Origin: Odiellus spinosus
Taxonomy: Eukaryota; Arthropoda; Arachnida; Opiliones; Phalangiidae
Direction of reading: 5' to 3'
Length of the DNA stretch: 64,000 nucleotides
NCBI GenBank assembly: GCA_963920705.1
Contig: OY987228.1
Location: 20,282,565-20,346,564 of the forward strand
Position numbers and translations under genes: made by a program. Of this stretch, positions 4,668 to 47,858 are shown piece after piece. Under the pieces are notes generated by a model, which ran no database searches, was not told the DNA's origin, and saw nothing but the letters and a program-made list of their open reading frames with translations. The first letter of the stretch is position 1; each line of letters opens with the position of its first letter.

Positions 4668-5002
4668 CAGAAGCCGATGAAACCCTCCTTTGAAGTCTAT
4701 TACTCCCGGGTCTTTTCTACCCCTCTCTGTATGGGTTATTCTCAAAAAGCGCGATTCGTACGCCTCCTAACGGTAGATGTTTTCGGAGCGGGAGTTCGTC
4801 GAGCGAATATCTCTAGCAGCCTTGGAGTTCGTCCAAAAAACGTCGTCGTTTGTGGAGAGAGAATTTCCAATTTTCCGTAGACAGGGGGGATGAAGTAGGA
4901 CCCCTTCTAACTCGTAAAATAGGGAATTTTACCCATACAGAGAGGAACGCTATATGGAACATTAGAGTAGTAGACTTCAAAGGAGGGTTTCATCGGCTTC
5001 TG
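4668..5002 (+). mobile_element. MITE family A, copy 1 (335 bp)
   Basis: Non-autonomous element with inverted ends that start CAGAAGCCGATGAAACCCTC and finish with the complement. It is flanked by the 7 bp direct repeat AAGTAAC (4661-4667 and 5003-5009). A further inverted block (CCTCTCTGTATGGGT and ACCCATACAGAGAGG) lies about 55 bp inside each end. This copy sets the plus orientation for the family. The short frames crossing it recur in sister copies because the DNA is repeated, not because they code. Confidence 0.93.
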
Positions 5003-9445: not shown

Positions 9446-9958
9446 GAGATGTAGAATAAGTCTTAATAATTTTTAATTAACGGAAAGTGACACGTGATTT
9501 TAAAATTTAAATAAAATAACTTTATTTAAAACAAATTCGAGACGTTTCGAACGGCGGTTCGTCGTTCAGTCTAGTGAATCAACTTATGGATTCTTTCTAA
9601 TATACTAGGTTCTAAACAACAATGGTAGAAGTATAACATTTAGTCGCTAGGGGTATGTGTGAGAGTGCCCCTAGTGGGCGTTTTAGTTCCAATAATTAAT
9701 AGGTTTTTTTAATAAGATTATTTACATTCCACTTATTTTTAAGTGAAAAACCCTAGCGACTAAATGTTATACTTCTACCATTGTTTTTTAGAACCTAGTA
9801 TATAAGAAAGAATCCATAAGTTGATTCACTAGACTGAACGACGAACCGCGGTTCGAAACGGCTCGAATTTGTTTGAAATACAGTTATTTTATTTAAATTT
9901 TAAAATCACGTGTCACTTTCCGTTAATTAAAAATTATTAATACTTATTCTACAATCTC
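9446..9958. repeat. Foldback element: about 207 bp inverted arms, 98 bp loop
   Basis: The left arm (9446-9652) and right arm (9751-9958) are reverse complements at roughly 95% identity by eye, from GAGATGTAGAATAAG at the outer edge to GTCGCTAGGG at the loop. The loop (about 9653-9750) has no repeat or frame. A transcript through it would fold into a very long hairpin. I see no convincing target duplication, although AAGTTGAGATGTA occurs at the left edge (9441-9453) and again at 9991-10003. It could be a MITE or a long-hairpin small-RNA source. Confidence 0.85.
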
Positions 9959-17662: not shown

Positions 17663-18003
17663 CAGAAGCCGATGAAACCCTCCTTTGAAGTCTACTACTC
17701 TAATGTTCGATATAGCGCTCCTCTCTGTATGGGTAAAATTCTCAATTTTACGAGATCGGAGGGGTCCTACTTCATATCCCCCCTGTCTACGGAAAATTGG
17801 AAATTCTCTCTCTCCACAAACGACGACGTTTTTTTTTGACGAACTCCAAGGCTGCTAGAGATATTCGCTCGACGAACTCCCGCTCCGAAAATATCTACCG
17901 TTAGGAGGCGTACGAATCGCGCTTTTTGAAACTAACCCATACAGAGAGGGGTAGACAAGACCCGGGAGTAATAGACTTCAAAGGAGGGTTTCATCGGCTT
18001 CTG
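17663..18003 (-). mobile_element. MITE family A, copy 2 (341 bp, reverse orientation)
   Basis: Same ends as the other family members (CAGAAGCCGATGAAACCCTC and complement), flanked by a perfect 7 bp duplication ATGTCGG (17656-17662 and 18004-18010). Internal order is reversed relative to copy 1. In the plus sense its right subterminal region reads ATATCGAAC, shared with copies 4 and 7, where copies 1, 3, 5 and 6 have ATATGGAAC. The frame at 17926-18111 straddles the element edge and is not a gene. Confidence 0.94.
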
Positions 18004-18976: not shown

Positions 18977-19110
18977 TAGATTGCGAGTGATAAGGTAGCT
19001 TTCCTAGAAGTATTTAATGCAAAAAGCCCTATCTTTCGTATGAAAATTATCGTTAGAAATAAACTGAAAAAAAAAGCACCTATATATTTTTGACGATTTC
19101 ATATTTGTAG

Positions 19111-19444
19111 CAGAAGCCGATGAAACCCTCCTTAGAAGTCTATTACTCCCGGGTCTTGTCTACCCCTCTCTATATGGGTTAGTTTCAAAAAGCGCGATTC
19201 GTACGCCTCCTAACGATAGATATTTTTGGAGCGGGCGTTCGTCGAGCGAATATCTCTAGCAGCCTTGAAGTTCGTCAAAAAACGTCGTCATTTGTGGAGA
19301 GAGAATTTCCAATTTTGCGTAGACAGGGGGTATAAAGTAGGACCCCTCCGATCTCGTAAAATTGTGAATTTTACCCATACAGAGAGGCGCGCTATATGGA
19401 ACATTAGAGTAGTAGACTTCAAAGGAGCGTTTCATCGGCTTCTG
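19111..19444 (+). mobile_element. MITE family A, copy 3 (334 bp)
   Basis: Complete element with the CAGAAGCCGATGAAACCCTC ends and a perfect 7 bp target duplication TTTGTAG (19104-19110 and 19445-19451). Same orientation as copy 1. One inner end has CTTAGAAGTC in place of CTTTGAAGTC. The open frame at 19226-19501 runs out of the element into flanking DNA and is not called. Confidence 0.94.
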
Positions 19445-22435: not shown

Positions 22436-22770
22436 CAGAAGTAGATGAAACCCTCCTTTGAAGTCTACTACTCTAATGTTCGATATAGCGCTCCTCTCTG
22501 TATGGGTAAAATTCCCAATTTTACGAGATCGGAGGGGTCCTACTTCATACCCCCTGTCTACGGAAAATTGGAAATTCTCTCTGCACAAACGACGACATTT
22601 TTTTGACGAACTCCAAGGCTGCTAGAGATATTCGCTCGACGAACTCCCGCTCCGAAAATATCTACCGTTAGGAGGCGTACGAATCGCGCTTTTTGAAACT
22701 AGCCCATACAGAGAGGGGTAGACAAGACCAGGGAGTAATAGACTTCAAAGGAGGGTTTCATCGGCTTCTG
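22436..22770 (-). mobile_element. MITE family A, copy 4 (335 bp, reverse orientation, variant end)
   Basis: Flanked by CTGACAG (22429-22435) and CTGATAG (22771-22777), a 7 bp duplication with one mismatch. Its left terminus reads CAGAAGTAGATGAAACCC instead of CAGAAGCCGATGAAACCC. Because the element is reversed, this is the family's right end. Copy 7 has the same change at its right end, which marks a subfamily. Confidence 0.93.
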
Positions 22771-22800
22771 CTGATAGGTATTGGAGAGAAATCGCAACCT

Positions 22801-24160: not shown

Positions 24161-24164
24161 TTAA

Positions 24165-24585
24165 AGGGAGAATGCAACCTAACAACAAGTGATTTTTTTA
24201 TCGATTTCTTATTGTTTAAATAAGCCTAATCCACTACTGAAAATATTTACAAACAAATATTAAACTAGAAATAAATTTAAAACTTACCCTGAAAATAGGC
24301 TTAGTGGGATTCATGGAGGTCCTATTTTCCTCGCGTGTAAGGTCTAGCGACGTAAGTCTCGTGGAGATCTCGCGTGAACGACGGGCCTTTGCTCATTGGT
24401 CGCTAGACCTTACACGGACGCGATTCAGGATCTCCATGAATCCCGCTAAGCCTATTTTCAGGGTAAGTTTTAAATTTATTTCTAGTTTAATATTTGTATT
24501 GTAAACTTTTTATCGAAGGATTAGGCCTATTTAAACGATAAGGAATCGATAAAAAAATCACTTGTAATTAGGTTGCATTCTCCCT
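24165..24585. mobile_element. TTAA-flanked MITE, AGGGAGAATGCAACC family (421 bp, complete)
   Basis: Flanked by TTAA on both sides (24161-24164 and 24586-24589) with ends AGGGAGAATGCAACCTAA and the complement. The inverted arms are long: AACAAGTGATTTTTT, TAGGCCTAATCC, TATTAAACTAGAAATAAATT, ACTTACCCTGAAAATAGGCT and GGATTCATGGAG all recur inverted on the other side. Purine-starting ends with a TTAA target resemble Kolobok more than piggyBac, but without a transposase this is tentative. Sister copies are at 58722-59118 and, in part, 5683-5783. Confidence 0.92.
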
Positions 24586-24589
24586 TTAA

Positions 24590-28129: not shown

Positions 28130-28469
28130 CAGAAGTCGATGAAACCCTCCTTTGAAGTCTTTTACTCCCGGGTCTTGTCTACCCCTCTCTGTATGGGTTA
28201 GCTTCAAAAAAGCGCGATTCGTACGACTCCTAACGGTAGATAATTTCGGAGCGGGAGTTCGTCCAGCGAATATCTCTAGCTGCCTTGGAGTTCGTCAAAA
28301 AAACGTCGTCGTTTGTGGAGAGAGAGAGAATTTCCAATTTTCCGTAGACAGGGGGTATGAAGTAGGACCCCTCCGATCTCTCAAAATTGGGAATTTTACC
28401 CATACAGAGAGGAGCGCTATATGGAACATTAGAGTAGTAGACTTCAAAGGAGGGTTTCATCGGCTTCTG
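28130..28469 (+). mobile_element. MITE family A, copy 5 (340 bp)
   Basis: Perfect 7 bp target duplication GTTTTAC (28123-28129 and 28470-28476). The left end reads CAGAAGTCGATGAAACCC, one change from the consensus, and the right end matches copy 1. Frames on both strands (28152-28484, 28230-28460) are the usual shadow frames of this family. Confidence 0.94.
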
Positions 28470-29264: not shown

Positions 29265-29423
29265 CGGCTTTATTCGCGACCAAAGCATCGTCTGCTAAGG
29301 CGTTATCTAAAGCTGGGTTTTCAAGGGAACGGGTGCGAGAAGAACACGAAATAAGAGGGTAAAAATTTCCTACTCACTTCAATCAGATCGTTTGAAAACA
29401 TAGCTTAATAGTATATTTATTAC

Positions 29424-29764
29424 CAGAAGCCGATGAAACCCTCCTTTGAAGTCTATTACTCCCGGGTCTTGTCTACCCCTCTCTGTATGGGTTATTCTCA
29501 AAAGGCGCGATCCGTACGCCTCCTAACGGTAGATGTTTTCGGAGCGGGAGCTCGTCGAGCGAATATCTCTAGTAGCCTCGGAGTTCGTCAAAAAAAAAAC
29601 GTCGACGTTTGTGGAGAGAGAGAATTTCCAATTTTCCGTAGACAGGGGGGGATGAAATAGGACCCCTCTGATCTCGTAAAATTGTGAATTTTACCCATAC
29701 AGAGAGGAGCGCTATATGGAACATTGGAGTAGTAGACTTCAAAGGAGGGTTTCATCGGCTTCTG
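29424..29764 (+). mobile_element. MITE family A, copy 6 (341 bp)
   Basis: Perfect 7 bp target duplication TTATTAC (29417-29423 and 29765-29771), standard ends, same orientation as copy 1. Expansion of an A run near 29591 and a G run near 29645 accounts for most of the length difference. It lies about 950 bp downstream of copy 5. Confidence 0.94.
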
Positions 29765-32023: not shown

Positions 32024-32027
32024 TAGA

Positions 32028-33478
32028 AAGAACAACAGCAACTCCCCATAAGAGTCTGGGTCCACGTAATGTTAAAAATTTTCGTCTCTTTTATGATAAA
32101 TTCGTATTATATTATTAAAATAGCGTAGTTGGGGGATAATTTAAAGCTAAAATTCGAGCTCACAACTGTAAATTTTGGGAATTACAACGAATGGAAGGTT
32201 TCTTCCATAATGTAAAGAATAGGAAGAATCTATGACTTCCGTGCCGGATATGAAAGCCTTCCCCCACACGAAAATCTTGAACGGTTATTATTTTAGATTC
32301 ATAATTATGTTAGGAAAATATTAGGAAAGAATTATTTTGTAACTGCCACGGGTATAGTGCTGGCGGCAAAATGAAATTCGTATATTTTTGGTCTACTATG
32401 CCTCGAAATCCTCGAAAACGCCTGTAGAAGTGTTCCACTTGCCAAGCATTCATGCAGTAGGCTTTTGCTAGCTTTACAGGGGCCGTGCAAAGACTATATA
32501 GCTTACTTGAATAGTCTTTGGTGTATAAGAAACTCGAAAAATAAATAGAGAAATCATACCAATTAGAAGATACTGGAGTAGTATCTTTAATTTTTATTTC
32601 ATATTAAACAAAACACACTTGTATAAAACGGACGAATTATTCATTTAACGCTAAGGTTTTCTACGTTTAAGGTATGTCTGGTAGTTCAAGCTCAGTGGCA
32701 TCTTCACACACTACACGCAATTTTGACTGGTACCAACTGCCTCGATCTTCATGGCGACGATAACCAAGATACCAGATTACGCTGCTAACGTGAACACAAG
32801 TACCTATCGTCAAACTACCACCTTTGCAATTGCAATACCAGCCTTTAATGGCATTTGCACCTGTCCCGTTCGGTACATAACGAATTAGAGCTTGGTGAAC
32901 AGCTGAGGTGGAAAATTGACCAGGCACGCGTATACGAATTAAGTCATGTTCAACTTTGGACACTTCGACGCTGAAAGAGCCGGATTTCTCTATAGTCAAC
33001 GCCACATAAGATTCAGCGCGTTTCGTTTTAAAGTCGCTCATTACCACCTCACGTACATCACTTTCACGAAGTACAGGGAAGTCTTGAAATTCACTATCCT
33101 CAATTCGTTGCCATTTAGACGGTTTGCGAAGCAGATTATCGCGCTCAACTACTTCCTTAAGAGGATTTTCTTTCGTAGAGACTGCCAGCATTTTTTCGAC
33201 GGAGTCTTCCCAGGAACCTTTAAGATGTAACTCCGGGTAGTAGGCGTTCAACAGCGCAGCAGCAATTTGAAGAAGTTCCGGAACTAATGGTAACATATGC
33301 ACAGGTATACGGTTTTGAAAAAAACGATACACCGTCTGCAAATGCCCATTCCTAACATCAACCGGCCACCTGAGGTACGTTACTTGTCGGGAACGATTAA
33401 CTTCTTGCGTGTTTACTTGCTTCTCGCCTTTAGACAAGAACGAAGGCATTTGTAAATCCACACCCAGTTCAGTCAGTA
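32028..33478 (-). repeat. Left arm of the transposon palindrome
   Basis: Reverse complement of 34988-36438. It includes the element end, about 640 bp of non-coding subterminal DNA and the last 270 or so codons of the transposase in antisense. Substitutions seen by eye include positions near 32114, 32433, 32670, 33259, 33267 and 33357. The inner junction is abrupt: pairing ends at TACTGACTG, after which the two sides are unrelated. Confidence 0.93.
32667..33461 (-). pseudogene. Antisense partial transposase (C-terminal third, 264 codons)
   Basis: This open frame repeats the C-terminal part of the sense transposase with four amino-acid differences. It lacks the N-terminal zinc modules, the helix-turn-helix and the first two catalytic aspartates. 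The residue matching the third catalytic position lies in RWPVDVRNG, with Asp where the sense copy has Glu (RWPVEVRNG). The SWIM-type motif WYCNCKGG...CVHVSS is intact. The frame opens at a GTG, with a stop just upstream at the palindrome junction, so it has no natural start. It is a passenger of the inverted duplication. If transcribed, it would be complementary to the 3' part of the sense mRNA. Confidence 0.88.
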
Positions 33479-33886
33479 TTTAATATTTTTTGCCAGCCAG
33501 GTTGGCGAAAAATAATTAAACCTGTTTTTATAAACATTAAAAAAATTGTAATATCTGGTTTGAACCATGATCTTAAGAACTTTCCTTATCAATAATATCA
33601 ATGTGAGAGTCACTTGGAATTTGTTACGCGTGCAATCGGAAAGTTACCAATAGTACAAGTAGAGGTATAGGCACTCACGTAAAGGCTGGCTTTGCTCGTT
33701 TTCTTCGTTTTAGTAAAGGGTTATTACCACTTGTAATTAATAGCAAAACAACGAAGATTTGTTTAAAGTGCTCGGGTCTGTCACGAAAGTTTCAAACGTT
33801 CTTAAATGCTTGCAAATCGTCCTTCAGTAGTGATCATGGCTCTTCAACGTCATCGTCTTCACCACAAAAACGAAGACAAATGACGC

Positions 33887-34011
33887 AAGTATCTAATCCA
33901 TCAACGTCAACAGTACCTGAGCCATCAACGTCCACAGTACCTGAACCAACAAAGTCCACAGTATCTAATCCATCACCGTCACCAATACCTCAGCCATCAA
34001 CGTCGCAATTA
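33887..34011 (+). repeat. In-gene tandem repeat coding a Ser/Thr/Pro linker
   Basis: A 24 bp unit (CCATCAACGTCAACAGTACC and variants) repeats about five times, coding PSTSTVPE-like units between the two zinc-binding modules of the transposase. Units are near-identical at first and then drift (KSTVSNPSPSPIPQPSTSQLP). This is a flexible, expansion-prone linker. Confidence 0.8.
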
Positions 34012-34179
34012 CCACGAAAGCGTACGTCATCAAACACTATTGCCATAAAGCACAGTTGTGTTCGGCCCCTGCCAAAGACTTGCTTCATTTGCGGTGTTAG
34101 TACACGAACCAGGGTAAAAGCCGAAGTGAGAACAAGTATATTTGTGGAAAGAGCCATATTTATTCATCGGGACAACTGA

Positions 34180-35799
34180 ATGTGCTCCACGCATCTCGTT
34201 AACGGAGAGCTTCCCACCGAAATAATTGCTGGAATTCAGGTTTCCGCTAGATCAACCATTATGACTGCCACGGACATTGAGCAACTATTACAGGACCTCA
34301 GGAAATGTGTTAACGACCTACGGACACCGAGCTTTGACAACTTCATACAAAGTGATGAAGACTGTAAAGTATTAACTTCATTGTCCCTGCACGAGTTCCT
34401 AGAGTTGCATTCGACTATTGAGGACATTATTCGTACCATCAGATGCTGTTCGTCGAAGACAGCTCTAGCAGTATTATTGGTGAAATTACGATTGGATATC
34501 TCCAATAAGGTGTTATCAACTTTATTTCATTTAACTGAAAGATCGGTATCAAACACGGTAAAAGCGGTTATTATGGCTTTATCGGAGCATTTCGTGCCAC
34601 ATCATTTTGGCCTGCAACACTTATCACGTGACAATCTGATAACAAACCATCAATCTGGAGCAGCAGTAAAACTCTTTGCTAACAACAAGCCTAATTGTCT
34701 TATTACCATTGTAGATGGCACCTATATCAAGGTTGGAAGATCCAAGGACTATACCGTTCTTCACAAATCCTTCTGTGTGCACAAAGGCCAGCATATCCTC
34801 AAGCCAATGTTAATGGTAACAACTACGGGTTACATAATAGATATAATCGGACCCTACTTTGCTAATGGCCGCAATAACGACGCGCGCATTTTAAACCATT
34901 CTATCAAAAAGAGAGAAGAACTCCAGTCTTTCTTTCAAGTTGGTGACGTTGTACTGGCAGACCGCGGTTTTCGAGACTCCAACAGCGTACTGACTGAACT
35001 GGGTGTGGATTTACAAATGCCTTCGTTCTTGTCTAAAGGCGAGAAGCAAGTAAACACGCAAGAAGTTAATCGTTCCCGACAAGTAACGTACCTCAGGTGG
35101 CCGGTTGAAGTTAGGAATGGGCATTTGCAGACGGTGTATCGTTTTTTTCAAAACCGTATACCTGTGCATATGTTACCATTAGTTCCGGAACTTCTTCAAA
35201 TTGCTACTGCGCTGTTGAACGCCTACCACCCGGAGTTACATCTTAAAGGTTCCTGGGAAGACTCCGTCGAAAAAATGCTGGCAGTCTCTACGAAAGAAAA
35301 TCCTCTTAAGGAAGTAGTTGAGCGCGATAATCTGCTTCGCAAACCGTCTAAATGGCAACGAATTGAGGATAGTGAATTTCAAGACTTCCCTGTACTTCGT
35401 GAAAGTGATGTACGTGAGGTGGTAATGAGCGACTTTAAAACGAAACGCGCTGAATCTTATGTGGCGTTGACTATAGAGAAATCCGGCTCTTTCAGCGTCG
35501 AAGTGTCCAAAGTTGAACATGACTTAATTCGTATACGCGTGCCTGGTCAATTTTCCACCTCAGCTGTTCACCAAGCTCTAATTCGTTATGTACCGAACGG
35601 GACAGGTGCAAATGCCATTAAAGGCTGGTATTGCAATTGCAAAGGTGGTAGTTTGACGATAGGTACTTGTGTTCACGTTAGCAGCGTAATCTGGTATCTT
35701 GGTTATCGTCGCCATGAAGATCGAGGCAGTTGGTACCAGTCAAAATTGCGTGTAGTGTGTGAAGATGCCACTGAGCTTGAACTACCAGACATACGTTAA
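34180..35799 (+). CDS. Transposase core, DDE_Tnp_4 type with C-terminal SWIM zinc finger (539 aa)
   Basis: The uninterrupted part of the transposase. About residues 60-135 fit the HTH_Tnp_4 helix-turn-helix (LTSLSLHEFLEL, then LAVLLVKLRLDISNKVLSTLFHL in two parts). The catalytic triad is visible as D179 (IVDGTYIKV), D261 (VLADRGFRD) and E310 (RWPVEVRNG), in the order and spacing of IS5/Harbinger-like DDE enzymes. A SWIM-type site follows at C485-x-C487-x9-C497-x-H499 (WYCNC...CVHV). The protein would bind the element's ends in the nucleus and catalyse cut-and-paste movement. ATG 34180 directly follows a TGA and lies inside the expected zinc module, so it is probably not the ancestral start. 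The family is secure; the ISL2EU assignment is from memory of its architecture. Confidence 0.85.
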   Translation: MCSTHLVNGELPTEIIAGIQVSARSTIMTATDIEQLLQDLRKCVNDLRTPSFDNFIQSDEDCKVLTSLSLHEFLELHSTIEDIIRTIRCCSSKTALAVLLVKLRLDISNKVLSTLFHLTERSVSNTVKAVIMALSEHFVPHHFGLQHLSRDNLITNHQSGAAVKLFANNKPNCLITIVDGTYIKVGRSKDYTVLHKSFCVHKGQHILKPMLMVTTTGYIIDIIGPYFANGRNNDARILNHSIKKREELQSFFQVGDVVLADRGFRDSNSVLTELGVDLQMPSFLSKGEKQVNTQEVNRSRQVTYLRWPVEVRNGHLQTVYRFFQNRIPVHMLPLVPELLQIATALLNAYHPELHLKGSWEDSVEKMLAVSTKENPLKEVVERDNLLRKPSKWQRIEDSEFQDFPVLRESDVREVVMSDFKTKRAESYVALTIEKSGSFSVEVSKVEHDLIRIRVPGQFSTSAVHQALIRYVPNGTGANAIKGWYCNCKGGSLTIGTCVHVSSVIWYLGYRRHEDRGSWYQSKLRVVCEDATELELPDIR

Positions 35800-36438
35800 A
35801 CGTAGAAAACCTTAGCGTTAAATGAATAATTCGTCCGTTTTATACAAGTGTGTTTTGTTTAATATGAAATAAAAATTAAAGATACTACTCCAGTATCTTC
35901 TAATTGGTATGATTTCTCTATTTATTTTTCGAGTTTCTTATACACCAAAGACTATTCAAGTAAGCTATATAGTCTTTGCACGGCCCCTGTAAAGCTAGCA
36001 AAAGCCTACTGCATGAATGCTTGACAAGTGGAACACTTCTACAGGCGTTTTCGAGGATTTCGAGGCATAGTAGACCAAAAATATACGAATTTCATTTTGC
36101 CGCCAGCACTATACCCGTGGCAGTTACAAAATAATTCTTTCCTAATATTTTCCTAACATAATTATGAATCTAAAATAATAACCGTTCAAGATTTTCGTGT
36201 GGGGGAAGGCTTTCATATCCGGCACGGAAGTCATAGATTCTTCCTATTCTTTACATTATGGAAGAAACCTTCCATTCGTTGTAATTCCCAAAATTTACAG
36301 TTGTGAGCTCGAATTTTAGCTTTAAATTATCCCCCAACTACCCTATTTTAATAATATAATACGAATTTATCATAAAAGAGACGAAAATTTTTAACATTAC
36401 GTGGACCCAGACTCTTATGGGGAGTTGCTGTTGTTCTT
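34988..36438 (+). repeat. Right arm of the transposon palindrome
   Basis: The original 3' half of the transposon: transposase codons from about residue 270 to the stop at 35799, then about 640 bp of non-coding DNA to the end TGCTGTTGTTCTT. It pairs base for base with 32028-33478 without net length difference. Confidence 0.93.
35868..35873 (+). promoter_or_regulatory. AATAAA polyadenylation signal of the transposase gene
   Basis: A canonical AATAAA lies about 70 bp after the transposase stop codon. Its mirror copy (TTTATT, 32593-32598) serves the antisense arm, so both strands carry a signal for ending transcripts that read toward the element's edges. Confidence 0.6.
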
Positions 36439-36442
36439 TAGA

Positions 36443-47523: not shown

Positions 47524-47858
47524 CAGAAGCCGATGAAACCCTCCTTTGAAGTCTATTACTCCCGGGTCTTGTCTACCCCTCTCTGTATGGGTTATTCTCA
47601 AAAGGCGCGATTCGTACGCCTCCTAACGGTAGATATATTTGGAGCGGGAGTTCGTCGAGCGAATATCTCTAGCAGCCTTGGAGTTCCTCAAAAAAAACGG
47701 CGTCGTTTGTGGAGAGAGAGAATTTCCAATTTTCCGTAGACAGGGGGGTATGAAGTAGGACCCCTCCGATCTCGTAAAATTGTGAATTTTACCCATACAG
47801 AGAGGAGCTCTATATCGAACGAGTAGTAGACTTCAAAGGAGGGTTTCATCTACTTCTG
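47524..47858 (+). mobile_element. MITE family A, copy 7 (335 bp, variant right end)
   Basis: Flanked by ATATATA (47517-47523) and ATATATG (47859-47865), a 7 bp duplication with one mismatch in AT-rich DNA. The right end reads CATCTACTTCTG instead of CATCGGCTTCTG, the same variant as copy 4, and has ATATCGAAC followed by a short deletion. Same orientation as copy 1. Confidence 0.92.

Follow-up and report, generated by a model that had tools for sequence, protein, structure and literature searches.

A palindromic Spy-type transposon at many sites in the genome of Odiellus spinosus

The window analyzed here, a 64-kb stretch of contig OY987228.1 of Odiellus spinosus, holds a DNA transposon organized as a long palindrome (Table 1). 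Its two arms, of 1449 bp each, differ from one another at six positions (32124, 32442, 32671, 33239, 33260, and 33357) and enclose 1509 bp; with the flanking AAA and TTT, which are target DNA, counted in, they span 32027–33478 and 34988–36439, or 1452 nt each. A first-pass annotation of the window had described a DNA transposon carrying an inverted copy of its own 3′ half, which the comparison of the arms bears out. It had put the arms at 1451 bp; the palindrome, its six mismatches and its centre of 1509 bp are real, but the arms are slightly shorter and the element ends at 32030 and 36436. No inverted repeat in the window is longer; the next has arms of only 335 nt, which excludes a chance origin. 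An Rfam search of the window returned no matches.

Table 1. Features of the palindromic element and of its target site in the window.
Feature	Position	Strand	Basis
AAA, left part of the unduplicated AAATTT target	32027..32029	.	44/44 examined ends adjoin AAA
Palindromic Spy-type transposon, 4407 bp	32030..36436	+	Junction at 11 genome places; inverted-repeat analysis
Left arm: inverted 3′ half (C-terminal part of transposase, 3′ region, 3′ terminus)	32030..33478	-	6 mismatches to right arm
264-codon fragment, C-terminal part of transposase, within left arm	32667..33461	-	Open reading frame
Inner junction between H4 of arm 1 and H1533 of arm 2 (H, position in the half element), without the centre GAC/GTC	33478..33479	.	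Exact 22-mer across it, 11 places
Single-copy centre: 5′ region and 5′ part of transposase gene	33479..34987	+	Arm comparison
Site of a 20-bp deletion; start codon of the 730-aa family frame lost	33623..33624	+	Copy comparison
24-bp tandem repeat in transposase linker	33886..34013	+	
In-frame stop, absent from two-frame copy	34177..34179	+	Frame comparison
Open frame, 539 codons, complete DDE_Tnp_4 domain	34180..35799	+	PF13359, E 3.8e-19, model 1-158/158
Right arm: 3′ half of element	34988..36436	+	Arm comparison
TTT, right part of the AAATTT target	36437..36439	.	Flank comparison

The family's transposase is a protein of 730 aa in which DDE_Tnp_4 is matched across the whole model and the DNA-binding part is weak, HTH_Tnp_4 falling under the cut-off. 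In the open frame of the window copy, too, HTH_Tnp_4 scores below the Pfam cut-off. The deletion that removes the start codon is present in all 11 copies with the window's junction and absent from the 12 loci with other junctions that were read at this site (three more did not cover it). A search of solved structures gave four matches with E values of 0.68–0.91, which are not meaningful, and the 34 pattern matches in genome_contigs (prokaryotic) and five in viral_contigs, neither of them a eukaryotic collection, yielded no confirmed relative.

The first-pass annotation had proposed looking for the inner junction elsewhere in the genome, and had raised the possibility that the palindrome is mobile as a unit. 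The search was positive: the exact 22-mer occurs at 11 places on 10 contigs genome-wide. We read the other 10 copies in full; their flanks differ, with no match between them over 600 nt. One of them, L009 (L numbers denote genome stretches that were fetched and read), shows zero differences from the window copy across 4413 aligned bp, and the groups formed by the window and L009, by L010–L012, and by L016–L018 each carry private arm-specific differences while lying at different sites. Because the exact junction recurs 11 times at unrelated sites, sequence comparison indicates that the window palindrome moves as a unit and was not formed in place. This copy has multiplied to 11 with a frame in which the beginning of the 730-aa protein is missing, and relatives therefore probably mobilized it in trans.

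With respect to the target site, all 44 examined ends adjoin AAA or TTT, and a genome search found AAA before 812 of 838 exact 22-nt termini. No consistent target duplication was observed across the 19 loci with both ends fetched. Beyond AAA/TTT, the flanks match over 2 bp in the window and L013, over 3 bp in L016 and over 4 bp in L019, and the remaining 15 loci have no match at 2, 3 or 4 bp; by estimate rather than computation, we judge four matches in 19 to be near chance for AT-rich flanks. L014 is inserted in a repeat for which nine relatives could be aligned; one of these, L098, reads a single AAATTT at the site, and the other eight have substitutions or indels there. Candidate empty sites for L022, L023, and L025 were not usable, because the flanks there are short repeats that match one another. 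The TAGA at both edges, which had been taken as a mark of transposition, was rejected as a target duplication: it overlaps the target bases (TAG plus A on the left, T plus AGA on the right) and is a coincidence. The family inserts into AAATTT without consistent duplication, which is the Spy signature.

The window palindrome had been treated as a single case; the family at large is palindromic. We counted 838 exact family termini in 443 Mb, 933 places when mismatches were allowed, and 84 palindrome centres of the form GAC/GTC. The most complete copy that we read (C1:25505863–25511823, C1 being one contig of the genome) is a near-perfect palindrome of 5961 bp flanked by AAA and TTT, with arms of 2981 and 2980 bp that differ by 11 substitutions and one gap. 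It contains two 730-aa transposase frames, placed head to head and diverging from the centre toward identical 3′ ends. A reading was obtained at 84 of the 85 loci classified; these fall into 23 junction classes by our count, the largest four comprising 25, 15, 11, and 7 loci. Except at uninterrupted centres, the breaks show 0–4 nt of microhomology. Fourteen classes retain at least 5 nt of the other arm's centre, and because this is the centre of the full palindrome we read them from their sequence as one-arm deletions of it. The other nine keep just 0–3 nt of the centre; three of them retain an inner piece of the second arm and six do not, the window's class, which has kept none of the centre, being among the six. 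By analogy with the other classes, the window's and the remaining centre-less classes would also descend from the full palindrome. The earlier proposal that duplication of the 3′ half made the element holds as regards the presence of the inverted half, but the window copy probably arose when a head-to-head palindrome that was nearly complete, at 5961 bp, lost the inner part of one arm.

Neither the 60 fetched 5′ stretches nor the single ends of C1 yielded an ordinary copy with a recognizable 5′ terminus. In all 60 stretches the 5′ motif continues directly into an inverted arm; they were drawn from 100 listed places among 253 with the motif, a sampling to which copies with a different 5′ end are invisible. 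On C1, 74 exact markers lying 640 bp inside the end resolve into 34 divergent pairs and six unpaired markers, and 94 exact 22-nt ends into 39 convergent pairs, only part of which were read through, and 16 singles (our count). Nine of the singles are palindromic (L028, L048, L106, L107, L110, L114, L115, L118, and L119), L117 is rearranged, and in L111 and L116 the second arm is present only at its beginning. L112 and L113, both fragments, are uninformative, as is the end at C1:5906892. At L105/L109 the element stops at H105 and is followed by unrelated sequence with DNA polymerase B frames; among 40 candidates scored, this junction was fully matched only at its own place. We read L105/L109 as a truncated copy, yet it comes nearest to a non-inverted 5′ flank.

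The family comprises two subfamilies, A and B, both palindromic, with a mean divergence of 6.8%. The centre of A is GAC/GTC, and that of B is GGCAAAA-G-TTTTGCC, 12 bp further in. By eye, the 5′ region resembles an imperfect hairpin. The idea that the transposon's left end had closed as a hairpin was dropped, the centre GTCTTTAATATT being, again by eye, unlike the terminus GAACAACAGC. Arms of the same A element diverge by 0.07–1.04%. Three bases stand in both arms of L010–L012 and in none of the 38–39 other A arms, and because private bases are shared by both arms of one lineage, they show arm-to-arm copying there. The arms of short B-type palindromes diverge by 2.6–3.6%, so not every pair of arms is kept alike by copying.

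We call the element a palindromic Spy variant, an assignment made by target site and domain rather than by a tree. It very probably belongs to a Spy-type lineage of cut-and-paste transposons with two identical 3′ ends, in which the full palindrome is ancestral and the window copy is a one-arm-deletion derivative. Such a lineage would have lost its original 5′ end; the transposase would act on a right end present twice in inverted orientation, and the whole palindrome would insert between AAA and TTT without target duplication, the mobility and the target being visible in the copies themselves. The window copy would have lost 1532 bp from the inner side of one arm and three bases from its counterpart, and gap repair after excision, using a palindromic template, may have produced both the arm copying and the many one-arm deletions. 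As to the first palindrome, we can only infer its origin, because no ancestral copy with a recognizable 5′ terminus was found from which it could be read off.

Palindromes could instead have formed separately and in place, if aberrant gap repair after excision used the same 3′ half to extend either broken end and the two products were joined, leaving many unrelated junctions. The diversity of junction classes and the short microhomologies are congruent with this, as are the six classes without inner remains of a second arm. We nevertheless consider it unlikely, as 14 of 23 classes keep part of one palindromic centre, a remnant not expected from separate events on a normal element, classes occur in several copies, and no normal template element was recognized. 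Long palindromes can also be misassembled, and this one was read from an assembly; however, an artefact, or an inversion in place after insertion, is very hard to reconcile with one junction at 11 sites on 10 contigs with unlike flanks, with arms bearing their own fixed differences, with contigs of up to 35 Mb and with 84 palindromic centres, and we give it almost no weight. A variant compatible with the ancestral palindrome is that palindromes arose twice, in A and in B, at hairpin-prone 5′ sequence. The different centres, the hairpin-like 5′ region and an A–B divergence well above that between the arms of A elements would speak for two origins, but the centres are just 12 bp apart, one central deletion turns that of A into that of B, and arm copying, seen in one lineage, could have let old palindromes retain similar arms; we consider two origins less probable than one. 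Tentatively, though we find it plausible, the lineage may live as a palindrome: an autonomous form with two genes and two right ends would predate the A/B split and have replaced the ordinary element here, its arms kept alike by copying during movement, with one-arm deletions yielding mobile asymmetric and miniature offspring.

In the reports consulted, Spy transposons, members of the PHIS superfamily, insert at AAATTT without target duplication, encode a DDE-domain transposase of roughly 700 aa and have been recently active in insects; their terminal inverted repeats (TIRs) measure 467 bp in cgSpy and 5–691 bp across a survey, which lists elements of 1165–5910 bp with a single open reading frame each (PMC11304231, PMC4482050). 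The present family resembles them in its target, in the absence of consistent duplication and in its 730-aa DDE_Tnp_4 transposase. It differs in an inverted repeat of 1449 bp (window) to 2981 bp that includes the gene, the survey range not being a defining limit, and in the two 730-aa frames of its fullest copy. Galileo, a Foldback-like element of Drosophila, has lengthened its TIRs by several routes, one being the capture of the final piece of the transposase frame, and a copy of 4306 bp has TIRs of 1575 and 1608 bp (PMC4168063). TIRs that take in part of the transposase frame are common to both, but Galileo belongs to the P superfamily and makes target duplications of 7–8 bp, and its description, as far as consulted, mentions no palindrome spanning a whole element with two transposase genes head to head (PMC4168063). 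Mutator-like elements likewise are DNA transposons with long, or multiple, TIRs; they form another superfamily, and TIRs enclosing a whole transposase gene are not mentioned in the portion consulted (PMC3310237). We found no palindromic Spy element in the literature searched, and a palindromic form spread to many genome sites goes beyond the reports that we found for this family.

Long perfect palindromes are normally unstable, and one-sided deletions beside the centre relieve their symmetry. Here, in contrast, such decay takes place inside a transposon family whose deleted products keep multiplying; the many junctions document, in a natural setting, how palindromes decay in the germ line of an animal. 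Several questions become testable: whether a pair of identical ends is transposed better than a left–right pair, how long TIRs and miniature elements come about by deletion around a palindrome centre, and whether inverted arms are homogenized through transposition-linked gap repair. Palindromes and their decay products appear to be the form in which this transposon has multiplied in the genome.

The inverted repeat of the window is as the first-pass annotation described it, spacer included, with mismatches at 6 of 1452 arm positions; the second-longest inverted repeat in the window has arms of 335 nt. A genome search with the inner junction, which that annotation had proposed, placed a 22-mer spanning it at 11 places on 10 contigs of the 443-Mb genome, the window counted. 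All 11 copies read as the same palindrome, the sequence adjoining their ends is unlike, and comparison of their 600-nt flanks gave no match between any two copies. The copy in L009 (L numbers are stretches fetched from the same genome, C numbers its contigs) shows 0 differences from that of the window across 4413 aligned bp, and three groups at separate sites stand out by their arm-specific differences, namely the window plus L009, L010-L012, and L016-L018. Since a shared junction, unlike flanks and grouped arm differences are predicted by transposition of the whole palindrome and not by its formation in place, these comparisons indicate that the palindrome transposes as a unit. The frame at 34180-35799 holds a complete DDE_Tnp_4 domain (E 3.8e-19). 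In 11/11 window-type copies a 20-bp loss has removed the start codon from the 730-aa frame, and the window copy has an in-frame stop at 34177-34179, so it was probably mobilised in trans. The 20-bp stretch is present in 12/12 other loci where it was read (among L019-L033; the site lies outside the sequence read for L026, L029, and L030).

Coordinates of the features of the window and of the fullest copy of the family
Feature	Location	Size	Remarks
Inverted repeat, left arm	window 32027-33478		1509 nt between arms
Inverted repeat, right arm	window 34988-36439		
Element proper	window 32030-36436	4407 bp	outer AAA and TTT are target sequence
Fullest copy	C1:25505863-25511823	5961 bp; arms 2981 and 2980 bp	AAA/TTT outside
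Interspersed repeat	window 4668-5002, 17663-18003, 19109-19444, 22436-22781, 28130-28469, 29413-29764, 47524-47697		
Hairpin element, miniature-transposon-like	window 9450-9953	203-nt arms (97%)	short spacer
Hairpin element, miniature-transposon-like	window 24161-24589	191-nt arms (86%)	short spacer

The interspersed repeat of the window lies in both orientations, its matched pieces (81-335 nt) being 91-97% alike. Elsewhere in the genome, contig C17 has, near 3.1 Mb and 4.4 Mb, a number of long COX1-like stretches containing TGA and TAG, which are probably nuclear copies of mitochondrial DNA.

AAA adjoins 44/44 ends examined, and across the genome it lies beside 812 of 838 exact 22-nt termini. 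Outside AAA/TTT there is no consistent duplication, the matches at 19 two-ended loci being of 2 bp in two, 3 bp in one, and 4 bp in one. The TAGA earlier read as a target duplication is thus a chance overlap with AAA and TTT. The element in L014 is inserted in a repeat family, and many relatives of its joined flanks are continuous across the site (best 40 candidates scored). AAATTT stands once at the equivalent site in L098, and the other eight of nine aligned relatives differ by substitutions or indels; the empty-site test is positive, resting on one good relative (L098). Insertion at AAATTT without target duplication is given as a Spy hallmark in passages of two papers (PMC4482050, PMC11304231).

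Palindromy extends through the family. A 27-nt 5′ motif occurs at 253 places in the genome, and in 60/60 stretches of 251-281 bp, sampled from 100 of these places, it is immediately preceded upstream by an inverted arm of its own element. On C1, a marker lying 640 bp in from the end occurs 74 times (661 in the genome), as 34 divergent pairs and 6 singles. Of 91 exact ends with AAA there, 19 are single and the rest make up 36 convergent pairs, which measure 2159-5967 bp apart from one of 8909 bp. Dropping the AAA requirement supplied three further partners; a recognisable ordinary 5′ terminus was sought among the 16 remaining singles and none was found. Seven close head-to-head frame pairs matched over 1-539 among the best 80 transposase matches scored. 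At L077 and L078 (C4:5496078 and C4:5496804), a complex or nested locus, two 5′ motifs of the commonest junction class point towards one another at a distance of 0.7 kb.

The arms of the 5961-bp copy differ by 11 substitutions and one gap, and their frames start 151-152 bp from the centre, where AATATTAAAGAC meets GTCTTTAATATT. This 24-mer, the centre of subfamily A, occurs at 84 genome places, some neighbours being spaced 47 bp. A near-palindromic 47-bp unit stands in tandem at the palindrome centre in L024 (3321-3440) and at C7:10102287-10102404, where three centres follow at 47-bp spacing.

The junction was surveyed at 85 loci (the window, L009-L025, and L027-L093, without L026), of which 84 were readable and L032 was not. 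Two (L033 and L050) have an uninterrupted centre, and the other 82 fall into 23 junction classes, the largest resuming at H1255 (25 loci; H numbers are positions in the half element), H1058-1060 (15), H1533 (the window's, 11), and H1926 (7). At least 5 nt of the second arm's centre are kept before the break in 14 classes, comprising 61/82 loci. Had normal elements folded back at scattered places, no kept centre would be left; because a kept centre is the expected remnant of a deletion inside one palindrome arm, the junctions point to one-arm deletions behind most classes. Nine classes keep 0-3 nt of the centre: three of them (L021/L080, L031, L060) retain another piece from the inside of the second arm, which the remaining six (the window's, L045, L047/L067, L061, L064, L081) lack. 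We infer that the window class shares descent with the centre-keeping classes.

A elements keep their arms alike, with an arm-to-arm difference of 0.07-1.04%, L032 being excluded as too short (7 differences at 56 compared sites). In L010-L012, three bases (H1988, H2093, H2435) are common to both arms and are found in 0/39, 0/39, and 0/38 other A arms; such private bases in both arms show that sequence has been copied between the arms in this lineage. In L120 (2286 bp) the two arms both break at H1894 and are missing roughly the same inner stretch, which fits a copied deletion. The arms of four short B-type palindromes differ by 2.6-3.6%, which counts against arms being kept alike.

Subfamily B has its own centre. 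Some of the C1 singles are 91-94% identical to the reference half. Two, L118 and L119, are palindromic, and L111 and L116 retain the start of the second arm. The centre is GGCAAAA-G-TTTTGCC in L111, L116, and L118 (with C instead in L119) and lies 12 bp deeper in the element than that of A. A and B diverge by 6.8% on average, with B membership assigned by locus, not by a tree, and short copies included. Both one palindromic ancestor with arm copying and two origins at a hairpin-prone sequence fit A and B. Four palindromic miniatures of 862 bp (L107, L110, L114, L115) are among the same singles. The B copy of L105/L109 (L109 433-3201, C1:3389400-3392600) is cut at H105 and adjoins viral- or Polinton-like type B DNA polymerase frames, with PF03175 in 2/3 scanned, one above cut-off.

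In the Spy survey (PMC11304231), TIRs measure 5-691 bp and intact elements of 1165-5910 bp have one frame, whereas the 5961-bp copy has a 730-aa frame in each arm. cgSpy is reported to have 467-bp TIRs and activity in human cells, and Galileo to have TIRs of ~1.6 kb into which the last piece of the gene can be recruited (PMC4168063); TIR growth as such is therefore already known. Searches of open-licence papers brought up no palindrome that takes in an entire element and carries a pair of transposase genes. Mobility, target, palindromic structure, the one-arm deletions behind most classes and, in a single lineage, copying between arms can be read from the sequences themselves. As to mechanism, a 5′-truncated element may have folded back or fused head to head, so acquiring a pair of right ends that the transposase would accept, and excision-gap repair from a palindromic template would yield copied arms and inner deletions. 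The centres look like the AAATTT target of the family into which a few bases have been inserted (AAA-GACGTC-TTT for A, L033; AAAA-G-TTTT for B, L111), and the transposase might have taken part in joining the halves.
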